This document shows positions 10,222 through 24,148 of a DNA stretch of 24,148 bases, one piece after another. The notes under the pieces are model-generated. The model was not told the origin of the DNA. It searched no databases and worked only from the letters and a program-made list of their open reading frames with translations. Made by a program: the position numbers and the translations under genes. Positions within the stretch are counted from its first letter, which is position 1; each line of letters begins with the position of its first letter. This DNA is from a virus. The stretch spans positions 1-24,148 of IMG/VR virus record IMGVR_UViG_3300025030_000411. One strand, given 5' to 3'.

Positions 10222-11751
10222 ATGAAAAATAATATCTATTATAGAGGTAACAGCAATCTCAAAGGCGATAATGTAGATCTAGAATATACACCAGAACAAA
10301 TAGAAGAAGTAATTAAATGTAGGGAAGACGTAAAATATTTCATTAAAAAATATGTAAAAATTGTAACTCCAAACGGTTTACAGTTATTTGAACTTAGAAA
10401 CTATCAAGAAAATATTATAGATTTAATACATAATAACGGAAGGTGTGTCTATCTTTCGGGCCGTCAATCGGGAAAAACGGCCACAGCAGCAGCATACATA
10501 GCTCATTATATTATTTTCAATCAGTATAAGAACGTGGCTATTGTTGCCAACAAGGAGGAAACGGCTAAGGTCATTTTCGATAGAGTTCAGTTAATATATG
10601 AACATCTTCCTATCTGGCTTAAGGTTGGGGTAAGAGAGTGGAATAAGAAATCCTTAGAGTTAGATAATGGTTGTACTGTAGTTATAGGGTCGTCTTCATC
10701 AACATCAATTTCGGGTCGCAGCATCAATTTGCTGTACATTGATGAATGTGGACTCATCCCAAAGAAAATGGCCGAGAAATTTTTTGACTCTGTTCTTCCG
10801 GTTGTTTCAGCAGATCCAAACGCTAAGATTGTTATTTCCAGTACTCCTAAAGGATTAAATCATTTCTATAGGATATGGAAAGAGGCAGAAAGTGGAAGAT
10901 CTGGTTATAAACATTTAAAGGTTGAGTGGTGGGAAGTACCGGGGAGAGACGAAAAATTTAAAGAAAAGATAATAAGAGAAAAGGGTATTGAACATTGGGA
11001 ACAAGAATACGCTGTAGAATTTAAGGGGTCTGGTGGTTCCTTAATTGATAGTTACTCGTTAAAGGCTATGGTTGTTGAAACTCCTCTTGAGTCTAGGATG
11101 GAAAGTAAATTTGATATCCTAGAGTATCCTAAACCAGATAGGAAATATTTAATCTTTGTTGACACTGGAGAGGGAGTTGGATTAGATGAATCAACTTGTC
11201 AAGTCCTAGATATAACGACTAGGCCATACAAACAAGTGGCTGTGTATTATGATAACACAGTTAAGATAGAAAATTTTCATGTACCTATCTCCTTAATTGG
11301 AGAAATGTATAACACTGCCTTAGTTGTCATTGAAACTAATAATGGTGGATCTGAAGTTTGCAGAAATCTCAACTACGATGTGGAATATGAGCACCAATTC
11401 TTCAATGATGATTTTGGAGTTAAGACCACAAAGTTAACTAAACGTTTAGGATGTTCCCAATTAAAATATTTAGTGGAAAGTGGTCAATTAATTTTAACTC
11501 ATTGGAAGACCATAGAACAGTTAGGTGGGTTTGTTAGAAATGCTAGAGACTCTTATAGTAACGAAGATGGTGACGATTTAGTTATGCCATTAGTGAACTT
11601 TGCTTACTGGATAAATAATAAGGACTTCACGAATCTTTGGTTAGACGAAGAAAACCTAAGCAAAATATTAAATAAATCTCAGATAGATGATATCAACGAA
11701 AACTTAATTCCATGCTCACTCTTTTGTGACGATGGATTGGATGACGATTAA
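10222..11751 (+). CDS. Terminase large subunit
   Basis: 509 aa. The N-terminal ATPase shows Walker A SGRQSGKT (79-86), Walker B LLYIDE (170-175) and coupling motif SST (206-208). The C-terminal RNase H-like nuclease shows Asp314 in FVDTGEG, Glu371 in VVIETNNGG and Asp451/452 in EDGDDL. It translocates DNA into the prohead at the portal and cuts the concatemer. It is directly followed by sheath and tube genes, as T4 gene 17 is by 18 and 19. No small terminase subunit gene is recognisable in the window. Confidence 0.96.
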   Translation: MKNNIYYRGNSNLKGDNVDLEYTPEQIEEVIKCREDVKYFIKKYVKIVTPNGLQLFELRNYQENIIDLIHNNGRCVYLSGRQSGKTATAAAYIAHYIIFNQYKNVAIVANKEETAKVIFDRVQLIYEHLPIWLKVGVREWNKKSLELDNGCTVVIGSSSSTSISGRSINLLYIDECGLIPKKMAEKFFDSVLPVVSADPNAKIVISSTPKGLNHFYRIWKEAESGRSGYKHLKVEWWEVPGRDEKFKEKIIREKGIEHWEQEYAVEFKGSGGSLIDSYSLKAMVVETPLESRMESKFDILEYPKPDRKYLIFVDTGEGVGLDESTCQVLDITTRPYKQVAVYYDNTVKIENFHVPISLIGEMYNTALVVIETNNGGSEVCRNLNYDVEYEHQFFNDDFGVKTTKLTKRLGCSQLKYLVESGQLILTHWKTIEQLGGFVRNARDSYSNEDGDDLVMPLVNFAYWINNKDFTNLWLDEENLSKILNKSQIDDINENLIPCSLFCDDGLDDD

Positions 11752-11801: not shown

Positions 11802-13490
11802 ATGAAATTATCCGCTGGAGTTATTGTAAAAGAATCTGATCTTAGCACTAGTGTTCCACAATTAGCTAGTTCTGTAACTGCTATGGTGGGAGCATTTTCA
11901 CAAGGGCCATGTACTGAGAGAGTTCTAATTACCAATGTTAAATCCCTAGAGGAAGTCTATGGCAAGCCTGATGATACCAATTATATTGATTGGTTCACTG
12001 CTTATAATATTCTTCAGTACAATCAGCTTCTTTATATTAATAGAGCTGAAAACTCTACCATGCTCAATGCTGGTCTTGGTTTCACAACTGTCTCTACCTT
12101 AGCAACTGCTGCTAGTGTGAGTGATATTAGACTTAATGATACCGATGATTTTGATGCTACTGATATTAGTTTTAACACTGGAGAGAAACTTAGAATTCTT
12201 GCCAGATATCCCGGTGCTTATGGTAACTCAATTAAAGTTTCCACTTGTCCCTCAACTTCATTTACGACTGCTACTATCTATGGAACTACTAAATTCGTAG
12301 ACCTCTTTGATAAGGCTACTCTTGAGACTAATGATGTTGCTGTTGTTGTCCAGTATCCAGATCCAATTGATACTTCAACTTGGGCTATTGTTGAAACTCA
12401 TATTTGTTCAACGAGTCCTACCGCTAAGGATTATAATGGTCAGACAACTTGGATTGGTGAATACATTAATCGTAATTCAAGTTATATCTGTGCTTACACT
12501 GGTGATAGTTCCACCTTTGCCTTACCAGTCTCAAAAGAAGTTGCTCTAGTTGGTGGAACTTTAGGGACTTATACCAGTGCTGACTTTGATGAGGCTTATG
12601 ACATCTTTGCTAATCCTGAAGATTTTGATTTCAGTATTCTTGTTGACTGTCATAATACTACCTTGAATAGTGCTGCTAGTGTTGCTGCTCTTCAGAAAAG
12701 TGTTGTCGATAAAATGGTTGGTACTAGTAAACGTAATGACATTTTCTTTGTCCTTAGTCCTTATAGTGGTGATGTGGTTAAGAAGACTCCTAGTCAGGCT
12801 CAGGCAGCTCTTGAAACCTATGTTAAAACGACCCTGAATAAGCCTACAAGCTACGCAGCTCTTTATGGTAACTGGAAGTATCAGTATGACCGTTATAATG
12901 ATAAGTATCGCTGGCTTCCCCTTTCCGGTGATATAGCAGGTATCTTTGCTAGTAATGATGCTACTAGAGAATTATGGTTTGCTCCTGCTGGTTTAACGAG
13001 AGGTCAGATTAAAAATTGCATTAAACTTGCCTTTAATCCTGATAAGGGTGTTCGTGACATTCTCTATAAGAATAACATTAACCCTGTTGTGAGTTTCCCC
13101 GGTGAAGGTCATGTTGTCTTAGGTCAGAAAACTTTACTTACTGCCTCAAGTGCTTTCAGTAGAGTTGCGGTGAGACGCTTATTTAACTATATGGAAAAGG
13201 CTATTAGTATTGCTAGTCGTTATTTCCTCTTTGAAAAGAATAATACTTTCACACGTAGACAATGGATTAGTATTGTTGATCCCTTCTTAGCTGACATTAA
13301 GGCTAAGGAAGGTTTATTGGATTATGCAGTTTTATGTGATAGTTCTAATAATGGTTCGACTCAATTAGATAATAATCAGCTAGTGGCGAGTATCTTCGTG
13401 AAACCTGCTTCTGACATTGAAGAAATCGAATTAAATTTCATTAATACTAAGAATGGTGTGGACTTTAAAGAAATTACTAATAGAGCATAA
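11802..13490 (+). CDS. Tail sheath protein
   Basis: 562 aa, starting behind AAGGAGAACAAA. The N-terminus (SAGVIVKESDLS, with MVGAFSQGP after it), the middle and the C-terminal part (about 440-562: RRLFNYMEKAISIASRYFLFE, ending FVKPASDIEEIELNF) are typical of T4 gp18-like sheath proteins. Copies stack as rings around the tail tube and contract to drive the tube through the envelope. It is somewhat shorter than T4 gp18 (659 aa), probably in the protruding domains. It is followed 11 bases later by the tube gene and preceded by its own late promoter candidate. Confidence 0.93.
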   Translation: MKLSAGVIVKESDLSTSVPQLASSVTAMVGAFSQGPCTERVLITNVKSLEEVYGKPDDTNYIDWFTAYNILQYNQLLYINRAENSTMLNAGLGFTTVSTLATAASVSDIRLNDTDDFDATDISFNTGEKLRILARYPGAYGNSIKVSTCPSTSFTTATIYGTTKFVDLFDKATLETNDVAVVVQYPDPIDTSTWAIVETHICSTSPTAKDYNGQTTWIGEYINRNSSYICAYTGDSSTFALPVSKEVALVGGTLGTYTSADFDEAYDIFANPEDFDFSILVDCHNTTLNSAASVAALQKSVVDKMVGTSKRNDIFFVLSPYSGDVVKKTPSQAQAALETYVKTTLNKPTSYAALYGNWKYQYDRYNDKYRWLPLSGDIAGIFASNDATRELWFAPAGLTRGQIKNCIKLAFNPDKGVRDILYKNNINPVVSFPGEGHVVLGQKTLLTASSAFSRVAVRRLFNYMEKAISIASRYFLFEKNNTFTRRQWISIVDPFLADIKAKEGLLDYAVLCDSSNNGSTQLDNNQLVASIFVKPASDIEEIELNFINTKNGVDFKEITNRA

Positions 13491-16112: not shown

Positions 16113-16187
16113 TGGTGCGCCTACCAGAAATCGAATCTGGAATAGAACCTTAGAAGGGTACTGTTATGTCCATTTAACTATAGGCGC
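16113..16187 (-). tRNA. tRNA-Arg(UCU)
   Basis: Acceptor GCGCCTA/TAGGCGC, D-arm GTTA/TAAC, anticodon loop CTTCTAA giving UCU, T-arm CCAGA-TTCGATT-TCTGG, discriminator A, encoded CCA at 16113-16115. One T-T mismatch sits in the anticodon stem. It reads AGA, a codon heavily used by the genes in this window. Confidence 0.93.
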
Positions 16188-16200
16188 ATATTAAATATTT

Positions 16201-16288
16201 TGGAGGAGAGTATAGGATTTGAACCTATGGAACCTTTCGGCCCTACTGGTTAGCAACCAGTTGCGATAAGCCACTCTGCCAACTCTCC
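16201..16288 (-). tRNA. tRNA-Ser(GCU)
   Basis: Acceptor GGAGAGT/ACTCTCC, anticodon stem ACTGG/CCAGT with loop TTGCTAA giving GCU, a long variable arm as expected for serine, T-arm ATAGG-TTCAAAT-CCTAT, encoded CCA at 16201-16203. It reads AGT/AGC; AGT is frequent in these genes. Thirteen bases separate it from tRNA-Arg. Confidence 0.95.
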
Positions 16289-16300
16289 AAACTTTTAATT

Positions 16301-16436
16301 CAAATGTGTGAACTAGCGTTACCTAATTCTAAAAATGGTACTCCTAGCTTCTTATAGAGTTATCATGGAGAATTATATCAGAGGACAGGCTAATATAATT
16401 CTCAACATGCTCTTGCTTTCCACATTACCACACTTG
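16301..16436. ncRNA. Structured non-coding element, copy B
   Basis: Homologous to the element at 17717-17861. Read on the plus strand both share, in order, an AGCG-loop hairpin, TTCTAAAAA (16327-16335), GAGTT-N3-ATGGA (16357-16369) and TCTCAACAT (16400-16408). Here the last two flank an 11-bp perfect stem, GAGAATTATAT (16368-16378) / ATATAATTCTC (16393-16403), and CATG pairs with CATG around an AA bulge. Closing pairs are CAA..GTG (16301-16308) with CAC-TTG (16431-16436) and TGGTA with TACCA. It lies directly beside tRNA-Ser. The transcribed strand is not known. The stretch 16437-16531 has further small hairpins but no gene. Confidence 0.55.
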
Positions 16437-16531
16437 AAATTTTATTGAGGCTGACAAGGAATTATACACGCTTACTTGCCTATCGTGGAGTCCAGCTTAC
16501 AGTAGGATCTAGAATGCCACCATAAGTTATC

Positions 16532-17095
16532 TCAACTCTTAAATTTTACAACAACTCTTACATCTTTATATTTATCAGAACTATTCCAAACATCATCTAC
16601 ATTAGTCATTCCTCTAGGAATGGTGTAAATTTCCTTTATATCATATTTCTCAGGATTAAGAAACCATTTCTTCCATATGCTAGATGAATCTCTTGATTGT
16701 GTTTCGTCAGAAACTATACCAGTCTTATACTTATTTCCAACAAATTTATAAATTTTGTGTAACACACCACTATAATCGGTTTCAAATTTCTTAGCTAAGG
16801 TGGGGACAAAATAAGATTCCCCATCTAAATATGTGTAATCGAAATTCACCGCACCAACAAAATTACCCTCGACTACGTATAAGAATAATCCTCCAACTAA
16901 TTTAGGTATATGAAAGATTTCTTTGTCGTCTGTGGGGTAAATTCCATTACTATTAAATGCGTCAGCAATTGGTTGTCTTAATTTTTCGTCAATATAATCA
17001 TCGTTAAGAGGTTTATCGAATACTTGTGGTGTTTCTCTTAGAATTTTATTCCACTTTAATTTCACCGTTCTATCTCCCAACTTAAATTCCATCAT
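16532..17095 (-). CDS. Hypothetical protein, paralogue of the 15523 gene, 187 aa
   Basis: Two adjacent ATGs follow AAAGGTTATTAAA; either could be used. Shares the GGLFLY...FVGAVNFD and SSSIWKKW...DIKEIYT segments with the protein at 15523, but their N-termini differ. The fold may be GNAT-like; this is a guess from strand and helix order. It lies 30 bases downstream of the nucleotidyltransferase-like gene and is probably cotranscribed with it. Confidence 0.6.
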   Translation of the reverse strand: MMEFKLGDRTVKLKWNKILRETPQVFDKPLNDDYIDEKLRQPIADAFNSNGIYPTDDKEIFHIPKLVGGLFLYVVEGNFVGAVNFDYTYLDGESYFVPTLAKKFETDYSGVLHKIYKFVGNKYKTGIVSDETQSRDSSSIWKKWFLNPEKYDIKEIYTIPRGMTNVDDVWNSSDKYKDVRVVVKFKS

Positions 17096-17125
17096 TTTAA
17101 TAACCTTTAGTTATTATACCATAAT

Positions 17126-17671
17126 TTAATTATACTTACTCAGTATTTGTTCGTAGTTTTTAATATCTTCTTCTGTCAAATCCCAACCGTTTAAATCTAC
17201 CTTACCAGTGTTATAGAGGTCAATAATATCCCCTATATCATGTCTCTTAAGTCTCTTAAGTTTTAAAGCTACTAAACCACTAGGAGATGCTACATTCACA
17301 CCAGAGTTAATTATAGCAGTTTTGATAACTTTATCAACCAATTTCTTAGAAATATTAATTGAGTCTGGAGACATCACTTCAATTTCAACATGAGTTTTAT
17401 TGTGCTGAAACGCACCTGTTCTAATTCTTTTGAAACCAAGAACAGTTTTCGGGATATCAGAACTAGATAGAAATAGAAAATCTACATCCATTGTCATTCT
17501 AGGTCTAACATAGAAATCTACAGCACAACCACCGATAAGAATACCGGCTGATGAATTTTTACACCAATCTAATAATGCTTGATTTACTTCCTTTACTGGA
17601 ATAGATTCATGAAGACTTCTACTTCCATTATTCACTTTATTTAGTAAATCGATAAATTTTAGTTTAGCCAT
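17126..17671 (-). CDS. Nucleotidyltransferase-like protein (AbiEii/MNT type), 181 aa
   Basis: Residues 44-66 show LIGGCAVDFYV...RMTMDVDFLF: the GG motif (47-48) and the D-x-D metal site (Asp62, Asp64), with a probable third acidic residue in HVEIEV (about 94-99). SGLVALKLKR followed by DIGDIIDLY matches the helical part of AbiEii-like nucleotidyltransferases, a group that includes toxins modifying tRNA or protein by nucleotide transfer. No partner antitoxin gene is evident. A structured RNA element lies 45 bases upstream, next to tRNA-Tyr. Confidence 0.65.
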   Translation of the reverse strand: MAKLKFIDLLNKVNNGSRSLHESIPVKEVNQALLDWCKNSSAGILIGGCAVDFYVRPRMTMDVDFLFLSSSDIPKTVLGFKRIRTGAFQHNKTHVEIEVMSPDSINISKKLVDKVIKTAIINSGVNVASPSGLVALKLKRLKRHDIGDIIDLYNTGKVDLNGWDLTEEDIKNYEQILSKYN

Positions 17672-17716
17672 TACTGATCCTCATTTTTATTTACAATTTG
17701 ATAAACTAAATTACCA

Positions 17717-17861
17717 GAACATGTGAAGCGTCACTTCTAAAAACAGTTAATAACTACAACATCAAGATAGGCACAATACCTAGATGGAGTTGTAATGGAA
17801 ATTTAATTGTTAGCAGCAACTAAATCTCAACATTACATTAAATTAACTGTTAACCATGTTC
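17717..17861. ncRNA. Structured non-coding element, copy A
   Basis: A nested, multibranched structure: GAACATG (17717-17723) / CATGTTC (17855-17861); AACAGTTAAT (17742-17751) / ATTAACTGTT (17842-17851); GTGA-AGCG-TCAC hairpin (17723-17734); CAAC..CATC with GATG..GTTG enclosing TAGG/CCTA (17757-17792); TAATG/CATTA (17793-17797, 17831-17835) with an inner AATTTA/TAAAT stem. It shares ordered motifs with copy B at 16301. It sits between tRNA-Tyr and the nucleotidyltransferase-like gene. It could be a stable RNA, a processing element of the tRNA transcript or a leader regulator. Confidence 0.6.
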
Positions 17862-17870
17862 CGTTACTTT

Positions 17871-17946
17871 TGGTGGATGGTGAAGAATTTGAATCTCCAT
17901 CTTGTCGCTTTACAGGCGAGGGCATTACCAATTATGCTAACCATCC
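17871..17946 (-). tRNA. tRNA-Tyr(GUA)
   Basis: Acceptor GGATGGT/ACCATCC, D-arm GCAT-AATTGGTA-ATGC, anticodon loop CTGTAAA giving GUA and identical to the loop of E. coli tRNA-Tyr, T-arm GGAGA-TTCAAAT-TCTTC, discriminator A, encoded CCA at 17871-17873. The variable loop has only five bases (AAGAT), whereas bacterial tRNA-Tyr normally has a long arm. The outer anticodon pair is C-C. Confidence 0.85.
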
Positions 17947-18028
17947 ATTAAATTTTAATTTAGCGTCTAAAGGGTAGGCGTGTACTGACGCCTCGTTTTA
18001 GTTTTGTCTTGCGACCTTCTTGTTAGCA

Positions 18029-18116
18029 GAGCTAGGCGGGAATCGAACCCACATTTATGTGAAATGATTATTTGATTATCTCTGAGGTAATAGACCAGTT
18101 ACCCCATTAATGGCTC
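18029..18116 (-). pseudogene. Degenerate class II tRNA-like sequence
   Basis: It has a good T-arm (GTGGG-TTCGATT-CCCGC at 18052-18036), a D-arm GGTAA-CTGGTCTA-TTACC (18103-18086) and a variable-arm hairpin CATTT-CACAT-AAATG (18066-18052). The acceptor pairs only partly (GAGCCAT with CTAGCTC), no CCA follows, and the 19 bases where the anticodon arm should be do not form a five-pair stem. The 88-base length suits a Leu- or Ser-type tRNA. Probably a decayed gene, or a tRNA with an unusual anticodon arm. Confidence 0.45.
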
Positions 18117-18240
18117 ATTCGGTGATCAATCGAATTTCGCCACACGACACTTCAAACACTAGCAAATCACATTGTCCTTCCGTTTAGACGACCAGCCCAC
18201 ACAAAATCTTTTACCTAACAAGTTCCCCTTTAGCAGATTT

Positions 18241-18480: not shown

Positions 18481-18509
18481 ATTATATCAGCTTACGATTA
18501 AGAAGTCAA
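18481..18509 (-). promoter_or_regulatory. Sigma70-type promoter, leftward
   Basis: Minus strand TTGACT (18509-18504), 17-base spacer, TATAAT (18486-18481). Drives the lipoprotein gene and possibly the tRNA region beyond it. Confidence 0.8.
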
Positions 18510-21509: not shown

Positions 21510-22613
21510 ATGCTATCTTATAAAGAATACTTAGATGAACGTAGAAGTAATCATGAGAATAATCCTAAAGTGTCGGCTTATACTCAGCTAAGACCTTATA
21601 GGAATGATCCTGATATTTATATTTCCTTCACTGATGTAGATAAATTAGGGATTAATCCTAAGAGTCGGTATAATACTCCGCTAGGAATCTACTTTTTCCC
21701 TCTGAAAGAAGTATGGTCTTTAATCGAGCATAAGGAATCTACAAGGGGATTACCTTTTGCTGGAGATAGGCCTTATATTTGGATCGTGAAGGGTAAGAAT
21801 AAAAACTTTATTAATGATATGTATAAAGATTATGGGAGTGATAACTTTGATAAGGACGTAAAAACACTGAAGAAGATATGGGAAGATAACCTAGAAAATG
21901 TTCCAACTGAGTTTGATAGATTGATTTCTAGCCTAAAGGAAGATGTAGAGGATTATACTGAGAGATACGACAGAGTAGTAACCCTTACAGACGAAGAAAT
22001 AAAAGAACGATATGATATGAGCAGAGAGGAATTACTAATTAAGCGTAAGGAAAAATTAGATAAATTTGGACGCGAATTAGTTTTATATGAAACAAATAAG
22101 AGAGATTTTTTACTTGGGTTATGGGACGAAACTTATGAGAAAGCATTAGCCTCAGCTAGAGGAAAGAATCCTATATCGTCATTTTGGAATTTAAGTAGAT
22201 TAATTTCTGAAGAGATGACACCTTATGAAGCTCCAATAAAACGAGCAACTAAGTGGAACTGGCTCTTAAGACAGTGCGGCTATAGTGGCTTTGCTGATAA
22301 ATCTGGTAAAGGTTATATTCACCCCTCTGAGCCAACACAAGCGGTGTTCTTAACCAGAGATGCCTTTACCGTAATAGATAAAATTTTAAATAAAGATTAT
22401 GGAGAGGGTATAAAATCTTTGTTGAGTGAGGTTCATAAGTGGGAAGAATTATATGATATGATGTATAGAGAAAATAGAATTCAAATGGTGAAGTATAAAG
22501 ATATTTCAAACTATAAAGAGTTAATAGATGATATAGTTGATGTTCTAGATATGGAGAAACACTTTCCTAATACCCTAAAGAAAATTAAATCAGGTTATTT
22601 CAAGAGGAAATAA
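21510..22613 (+). CDS. Tagged protein, first of a paralogous pair, 367 aa
   Basis: Begins MLSYKEYLDE-R, two bases after the previous stop. Layout: a conserved N-terminal domain (about 11-125, with YNTPLGIYFFPL and PFAGDRPYIWI), a variable charged helical middle (about 126-210), and a conserved C-terminal domain with CGYSGFADKSGKGYIHPSE and TQAVFLTRDAF. The same layout is seen in the gene at 23118. I know this C-terminal pattern from phage hypothetical proteins but no function. An 89-base block is identical to its paralogue. Confidence 0.75.
   Translation: MLSYKEYLDERRSNHENNPKVSAYTQLRPYRNDPDIYISFTDVDKLGINPKSRYNTPLGIYFFPLKEVWSLIEHKESTRGLPFAGDRPYIWIVKGKNKNFINDMYKDYGSDNFDKDVKTLKKIWEDNLENVPTEFDRLISSLKEDVEDYTERYDRVVTLTDEEIKERYDMSREELLIKRKEKLDKFGRELVLYETNKRDFLLGLWDETYEKALASARGKNPISSFWNLSRLISEEMTPYEAPIKRATKWNWLLRQCGYSGFADKSGKGYIHPSEPTQAVFLTRDAFTVIDKILNKDYGEGIKSLLSEVHKWEELYDMMYRENRIQMVKYKDISNYKELIDDIVDVLDMEKHFPNTLKKIKSGYFKRK
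21793..21881 (+). repeat. 89-bp exact repeat, copy 1
   Basis: Identical to 23401-23489. It encodes KNKNFINDMYKDYGSD and the residues after it, up to the border of the variable middle region. Sequence on both sides differs clearly. Confidence 0.9.
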
Positions 22614-22617
22614 TTAT

Positions 22618-23118
22618 ATGGCTTCGATCTCAGACTTTGTTTCTAATTTTCAACATGGGGCTAGACCAAACTTATTTAAAGTTGAAATTCCCTTCTTGGG
22701 TGAGAAGATGAAATTCTTCTGTAAGTCTGCTAGTATCCCCGGTATGAGTTTCGATAATATTCCAATTAATTATCAGAATAACACGATAAATATTGCTGGT
22801 GATATCAGTTATCAACCTTGGCAATTGACTATTATTAATGATAAAGATTTCCTCATTAGGAAAAATATTGAACGTTGGATGGGAGCTATTAAGGCTGGAT
22901 ATGGGACTAGTGGAGCAACTAGTCTAAAAGAATACCTTAAGAGTGCTTACGTTTATCAGTTAGATGAAGAGGGTGGCGAGATTCAAGGTTATGTTTTAAA
23001 TTATTGTTACCCTAGTAATCTTGGTGAGATCCCCTTAAGTTTTGATAATCAGAACACAGTTGAAGAATTTCAGTTAGAGCTTACATATAGTTTTTTCGAG
23101 AGAAATGGATTACTATAA
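22618..23118 (+). CDS. Second tail tube paralogue (gp19-like)
   Basis: 166 aa, the same length as the tube protein at 13502. Shares SDFVSNFQHGARPNLF, KSASIPG, IAGD, WQLTIIND and SFDNQNTVEEFQLE at matching positions, but most other residues differ, so this is an old duplication. It could be a tube initiator or terminator ring (as gp54 and gp3 of T4 are tube-fold proteins), a minor tube component or an alternative tube. It is framed by tagged genes, and there is no sheath gene beside it. Ribosome binding site GAGGAAATAATT. Confidence 0.8.
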   Translation: MASISDFVSNFQHGARPNLFKVEIPFLGEKMKFFCKSASIPGMSFDNIPINYQNNTINIAGDISYQPWQLTIINDKDFLIRKNIERWMGAIKAGYGTSGATSLKEYLKSAYVYQLDEEGGEIQGYVLNYCYPSNLGEIPLSFDNQNTVEEFQLELTYSFFERNGLL

Positions 23119-24148
23119 TGTTATCTTATAAAGAATTTTTATTTGAACGTAGAAGTAATCATGAGAATAATCCCAAGATTTCCACTTATGATTATTTAAA
23201 GAAATATAAAGATGACCCCGATGTTTATATTTCCATGACTAGGATTGATAAAATCGGCATCAATCCTCAAAGTAAATTTAATACTCCTTTGGGGGTTTAT
23301 TGTTATCCTCTTCGTGAGATGTGGAATCTTATAGAGACGGGCAAAACAACCTCGGATTTACCCTTTGCTGGAGATAGGCCTTATGTGTGGATTCTTAGGA
23401 GTAAGAATAAAAACTTTATTAATGATATGTATAAAGATTATGGGAGTGATAACTTTGATAAGGACGTAAAAACACTGAAGAAGATATGGAACAGAGATAA
23501 CAAATATATCATAGATCTTAGAAACAAAGAATTAGAGAAGCGTAGAGATTATAACACTAAAAAATTGTATTTTTATGATGAGGGTAGTAGAGACTATAAT
23601 AATTTTTTAATTATATTAAAAGACATAGAAAATGAAATAAAGAAAAATAATTCTGATTATTTATGGGATGAGATATACGAGGATGGCCTGAAGAGTGCCA
23701 GAGAAAAAAACTCTATATCCTCATTTTGGAATGTTACTAGATTAGTCTCTTTACATTTAACTAAAGACAAAGAAGCTATTTCCTCTATAACTAAATGGAA
23801 TTCCATATTAAGAGAATGTGGTTATAGTGGTTTTGCTGATAAGTCTGGTAAGGGTTATATTCATCCCTCTGAATCAACACAAGCGGTATTCTTAACTAGA
23901 GATGCCTTTGAAGTAATAGATAAAATTCCTAACAGAGATCATAAAGAAAATAGCGCCTCGGCGGTAATTACTGATTTGTTGAATCAAGGAACAGCAAAAG
24001 CGTTTAAGTCGGTTTACTCCATAATCAAAAATATCAAAGATAAAGAACTTCTTGAAAACGTGCTATCTTACCTCTTGTACAGAATAGTGCGATATAAAAG
24101 TTACAATGGGGATAAAGAACTTTATAATCATGTATATTATATTATAAA
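23118..24148 (+). CDS. Tagged protein, second of the paralogous pair (3' end missing)
   Basis: Starts at TAATG, sharing one base with the tube paralogue. Begins MLSYKEFLFE-R, and RRSNHENNPK follows as in the gene at 21510. The frame is open to the window edge (343 codons). It has the same N-terminal and C-terminal domains as its paralogue, with FNTPLGVYCYPL, PFAGDRPYVWI and CGYSGFADKSGKGYIHPSE; the middle (about 126-190) is unrelated in sequence. The end beyond residue 343 is not visible. Confidence 0.75.
   Translation, partial: MLSYKEFLFERRSNHENNPKISTYDYLKKYKDDPDVYISMTRIDKIGINPQSKFNTPLGVYCYPLREMWNLIETGKTTSDLPFAGDRPYVWILRSKNKNFINDMYKDYGSDNFDKDVKTLKKIWNRDNKYIIDLRNKELEKRRDYNTKKLYFYDEGSRDYNNFLIILKDIENEIKKNNSDYLWDEIYEDGLKSAREKNSISSFWNVTRLVSLHLTKDKEAISSITKWNSILRECGYSGFADKSGKGYIHPSESTQAVFLTRDAFEVIDKIPNRDHKENSASAVITDLLNQGTAKAFKSVYSIIKNIKDKELLENVLSYLLYRIVRYKSYNGDKELYNHVYYII
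23401..23489 (+). repeat. 89-bp exact repeat, copy 2
   Basis: Identical to 21793-21881, 1608 bases away in direct orientation; the block lies at the same position in the paralogous gene. Confidence 0.9.

Follow-up and report, generated by a model that had tools for sequence, protein, structure and literature searches.

The locus studied here raises the question of whether two similar regions beside the tRNA genes of a phage are copies of one structured RNA, and what such an RNA would do at that position. The window, namely the 24,148-base virus record IMGVR_UViG_3300025030_000411 taken from position 1 to 24,148, was assigned to a T4-like myovirus because the genes for the terminase large subunit (10222-11751) and the tail sheath protein (11802-13490) are present. 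The terminase is about 40% identical to those of known T4-type phages. For the tail sheath, a relative of 72% identity (L229:8947-11079) spans 2133 bases against 562 aligned residues, and this length suggests that about 450 bases are inserted in that gene. Elsewhere in the window, stretches of 21513-22400 are repeated at 23121-23930 (plus strand, region 21510-23930); among them, 89 bases match exactly (at 21792 and 23400), and this pattern points to a probable gene duplication.

Position of the two elements in the tRNA gene cluster

The sequence motifs that a preliminary description had placed at 16301-16436 and 17717-17861 were found in both regions. The corresponding elements are E1, of about 139 nt (16300..16438, minus strand), and E2, of about 150 nt (17715..17864, minus strand). 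Three tRNA genes lie close by, all on the minus strand: tRNA-Arg(UCU) at 16113..16187 and tRNA-Ser(GCU) at 16201..16288, identified by ARAGORN and Rfam (RF00005 for the latter), and tRNA-Tyr(GUA) at 17871..17946, identified by ARAGORN, Rfam and its sequence, with the CCA end encoded. In minus-strand order, the region reads as a degenerate tRNA-like sequence, a short motif named Q, tRNA-Tyr, E2, two ORFs, E1, tRNA-Ser, tRNA-Arg and a further ORF. E2 starts about 6-9 nt downstream of tRNA-Tyr, and tRNA-Ser lies about 11-12 nt downstream of E1; each element is thus located at a tRNA/mRNA boundary with the tRNA about 6-12 nt away. The surrounding ORFs are on the same strand, and plausible genes overlap neither element. 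The boundary between tRNA-Arg and the following ORF carries no copy, indicating that the element is dispensable at some junctions.

Between E2 and E1 lie an ORF of 181 aa (17126..17671, minus strand) and an ORF of 187 aa (16532..17095, minus strand). The former shows a weak likeness, under the Pfam cut-offs, to nucleotidyltransferases (DUF6036/AbiEii), and no phage relatives of it were found; a search for recognised relatives of the latter also gave none. As the start codon at 17671 follows soon after the end of E2, this element could be a cis-regulatory leader or riboswitch that controls the ORF starting about 45 nt downstream. E1, however, precedes a tRNA instead of an ORF, and neither a riboswitch match in Rfam nor an intrinsic terminator at the element was found; we regard this role as quite unlikely.

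The best minus-strand promoter-like sites were located near 19781-19753 and 18509-18481, both upstream of the tRNA and element region. The second of these (18481..18509, minus strand) has the form TTGACT-17-TATAAT, matching the consensus at 11 of 12 positions with TG ahead of the second hexamer. Such sites showed no excess over shuffled sequence.

A common fold of E1 and E2

For both elements the predicted fold is stronger on the minus than on the plus strand, with z of -3.0 versus -1.6 for E1 and -5.4 versus -3.8 for E2. The shared structure contains six G-U cells and no A-C cell, a count that is biased, the structure having been derived from the minus strand. On these predictions, the minus strand, which also carries the tRNA genes and neighbouring ORFs, is the preferred reading of E1 and E2. 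Read in this direction, the shared blocks are AUGUUGAGA, UCCAU-N3-AACUC and UUUUUAGAA, in the same order in both elements.

Each element is enclosed by a closing helix, P1, formed by CAAGUGUG/CACAUUUG in E1 and by CGGAACAUG/CAUGUUCUG in E2. The flanks of the two elements show no similarity, indicating that the conserved unit ends at P1. The long arm P3 has the common form AUG-UU-hairpin-CAU with a UU bulge, and is represented by CAUG-UU-14-bp hairpin-CAUG in E1 and GUAAUG-UU-12-bp hairpin-CAUUAC in E2. The variable helix P4 starts at or near the conserved AACUC and consists of ACUC/GAGU in E1 and of CAUC/GAUG plus UAGGUA/UGCCUA in E2. A UUUUUA linker then leads from P4 to P5 in both elements. 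P5, located one base ahead of the 3' strand of P1, has the common form GAA...UUC with the loop end UAACG or UGACG; it is a 7-bp hairpin in E1 (GAAUUAG-GUAACG-CUAGUUC) and a 4-bp hairpin in E2 (GAAG-UGACG-CUUC). In E1, the minimum free energy (MFE) fold favours a different pairing over P5, and the conformer with P4 and P5 lies 0.5 kcal/mol above it. P2 comprises 10 bp in E2 and at most 3-5 bp in E1, with a predicted probability near zero in the latter. The second helix of the preliminary description is thus strong only in E2. What that description had read as a hairpin with an AGCG loop corresponds on the minus strand to P5, and its AA bulge before CAT in the long arm reads UU.

The shared sequence blocks by themselves are within chance. 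Local alignment of E1 with E2 gave p of about 3e-4, and other pairs in the window score equally; in shuffled windows, the same block pattern arose by chance in about 5.75 pairs when both strands were taken into account. Two A/T-rich hairpin regions with accidental short blocks in common might then account for the likeness. The fold argues against this. In a simulation of 4000 random windows of the same composition, inner helices of at least 10 bp in both members were observed for none of the 29,072 block-sharing pairs (0/29,072), and the real pair has inner helices of 14 bp (E1) and 12 bp (E2). Blocks and fold together are significant, and it is the fold that carries the case.

Covariance models built from single elements gave the same result. 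The model of E2 alone, built on a structure near E2's own MFE fold, detected E1 at 29.8 bits (E 1.1e-5). With the model of E1 alone, E2 scored 33.3 bits (E 2.5e-6), and all displayed pairs were standard; the structure of this model, chosen after both elements were known, was a near-MFE fold of E1 to which P5 had been added and from which a 3-bp hairpin had been taken out. E-values of single-sequence models are rough, and the null was set by 86 kb of DNA from other T4-like phages, in which the best scores were 12.8 and 12.2 bits, so that the reciprocal matches stand 17-21 bits over the best null score. A chance origin is, with these results, highly improbable. The reciprocal detection and the P1/P3/P5 architecture common to both place E1 and E2 in one group.

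Covariation, which had been suggested from the inner stem, was borne out by the alignment of E1 and E2, in which 13 base pairs are changed on both sides with pairing kept. As many as 98.8% of the cells are paired, against 33-41% in slid controls, for an alignment that was fitted to the E1/E2 structure. Identical columns are more frequent among unpaired (25/33) than paired (39/71) positions, the pattern to be expected of loops and linkers that are important. Since E2-ORF-ORF-E1 is a direct-repeat arrangement and both intervening ORFs lack phage relatives, the elements could also be relics of duplication or recombination around a two-ORF cassette in the tRNA array, with the folds as passengers. 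A passenger repeat would not keep its pairing by two-sided change in strongly diverged copies as E1 and E2 do, and such an origin appears unlikely. The common fold of E1 and E2 is well supported, and we take the two elements to be a real, distantly related pair of paralogous RNAs.

Search for relatives, and a separate motif in the same array

In Rfam 15, only the three tRNAs were recognised at gathering scores, and E1 and E2 had no match even at E 10, in agreement with the earlier remark that no named RNA family was recognised here. Further homologues were searched for by blastn, by pattern scans and with R2, the covariance model from the E1+E2 pair; together with Rfam, the search took in T4, 13 isolate phages and about 75 viral contigs. 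Blastn gave no match of E1 or E2 against phages, and none of E2 against plasmids. Matches in pattern scans of viral contigs and genome contigs were judged from context and fold to be chance. No match was obtained by R2 in the whole T4 genome, nor in the 13 further isolate phages, searched whole with stricter filters; no convincing match was observed in terminase relatives or tail sheath relatives, including the loci of the latter searched with filters off. In genome contigs, no relative of the tail sheath protein was found. The contigs and loci of the nearest (sheath) relatives carry no tRNA genes, so that the absence of the elements there is weak evidence. As the model R1 misses E1 with default filters, the sensitivity of negative whole-record searches run under such filters is limited where homologues are distant.

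The known copies of the element are therefore two, both in one 24-kb fragment. The covariance model from both copies, proposed in the preliminary description for a survey of phage genomes, revealed no further homologue, and the wider class of phage RNA anticipated there gained no third member in any search. Further homologues with compensatory changes, on which that description had made its proposal depend, were likewise not found, but the two copies themselves carry the 13 compensatory pairs.

The Q motif (17971..18030, minus strand), identified by alignment and blastn, is located between tRNA-Tyr and a degenerate tRNA-like sequence (18031-18117, minus strand) directly upstream. In this tRNA-like sequence, which ARAGORN did not call, the T-arm GGGUUCGAUUCCC is intact and the anticodon arm is weak. 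The core of Q is a conserved ACGAGGCG-loop-CGCCUA, and nine aligned Q sequences have the invariant core UAANACGAGGCG...CGCCUA. The hairpin AGGCG/CGCCU shows no variation in this nine-sequence alignment; the hairpin preceding the core differs in sequence among phages with, as judged by eye, pairing kept. Q was observed beside or between tRNA genes of unrelated phages, namely Psa21, D6, Erwinia and Pectobacterium jumbo phages, TPWB-08 and the T5-like phages KEY and AAS21; at other positions it was seen in P22-like, Acinetobacter, Arthrobacter and Rhodococcus phages (loci with tRNA genes, L298, L300 and L302-L308; loci without annotated tRNA genes nearby, L299, L301 and L309-L311). In most of the tRNA-array cases it is preceded by a T-arm-like sequence. 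Q had no match in Rfam 15 and may represent an unrecognised phage RNA family. Homology of Q to E1 and E2 was not supported: the Q core pattern, present at the Q site and other Q loci, is absent at E1 and E2, and the E1+E2 model found nothing at the Q loci.

Possible roles and comparison with known RNAs

Most likely, E1 and E2 would be structured RNAs co-transcribed with the tRNAs, either acting at the junctions or released as stable RNAs. We tentatively favour, at somewhat below even confidence, the interpretation that they are paralogues of one structured RNA domain, duplicated long ago, co-transcribed with the genes around them and marking the tRNA/mRNA boundaries. From the strand shared with the tRNAs and the promoter-like sites upstream, we infer that both would be transcribed from the minus strand as part of a phage tRNA/mRNA transcript. 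Each element would fold into a closed multi-arm junction with its ends sealed by P1, and each copy would mark one boundary, tRNA-Tyr|E2|ORF or ORF|E1|tRNA-Ser. The sealed fold, the P1 of which lies some 6-12 nt from the tRNA, might keep tRNA and mRNA parts apart. Nucleases could then cut the A/U-rich spacers, by which tRNAs and messages would be freed with their ends protected and the element would remain as a compact stable RNA. This separation of tRNA from mRNA is suggested by the position and the sealed fold. Counted against it are the presence of two copies only, the helix P2 that is not shared, the empty tRNA-Arg|ORF boundary, the 0.5 kcal/mol by which the MFE fold of E1 disfavours P5, and promoter-like sites at shuffle frequency.

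A role in trans is possible and nearly as likely as the separation of boundaries. E1 and E2 could be stable RNAs analogous to T4 RNA C and D, with the conserved UUUUUA linker, the P5 loop and the UU bulge as binding sites for a host or phage protein or RNA. The tight packing among tRNAs, as for T4 rnaC and rnaD, and the conservation of unpaired positions are consistent with this role; no target or partner was identified, and the elements match rnaC and rnaD in neither sequence nor structure. RNAC and RNAD of T4, the function of which is not known, are late RNAs detected by Northern blot (PMC9697503).

To return to the separation of tRNA and message, it is doubtful, but conceivable, that E1 and E2 represent a new family of structured RNAs which, in a T4-like lineage so far little sampled, lies at tRNA/mRNA junctions and controls this step, possibly by nuclease recruitment or self-cleavage. 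A pair within one genome with compensatory changes offers a fold to test and fixed boundaries, together with invariant unpaired bases as sites for probing. It also suggests that phage tRNA arrays contain more RNA genes than are annotated.

Like tRNA (RF00005), E1 and E2 fold into several arms, with a closing stem that adjoins a 3' hairpin, but they lack a T-loop sequence, their first arm is much longer and they have no Rfam match. GOLLD and ROOL are ornate noncoding RNAs of several hundred nt associated with phage tRNA genes; E1 and E2, at about 139 and 150 nt, differ from both in length and have no match in Rfam. Theta ribozymes are HDV-like and associated with phage tRNAs; a role in processing the 3' trailers of tRNAs has been proposed for them, and they indicate that neighbours of phage tRNAs can be catalytic RNA elements (PMC10879173). 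E1 and E2 resemble them as RNA elements adjoining phage tRNA genes. In theta ribozymes, however, the associated tRNA lies at most 5 nt from the cleavage site, and their HDV-like fold, with the topology of a nested double pseudoknot and J4/2 core, was not recognised by eye in the folds of E1 and E2. By inspection only, an HDV-like fold, an integron attC-like site and a 5S-like fold were each not supported.

With RNA C and D of T4, to which the preliminary description had likened the two elements, structured RNAs without a known function were already on record next to phage tRNA genes. Homology was rejected for lack of a sequence-plus-structure match: over the T4 tRNA region, R2 scored 9.5 bits at best, and its sole match inside rnaC was of 3.3 bits. 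T4 rnaC in addition carries a T-arm-like sequence that E1 and E2 lack. Although the pair model thus matches neither rnaC nor rnaD, the likeness in position beside the tRNA genes holds. As non-tRNA sequences of 119-139 nt, rnaC and rnaD are packed against T4-type tRNA genes in the same direction, and E1 and E2 likewise lie inside a cluster of phage tRNA genes, on the same strand as these genes.
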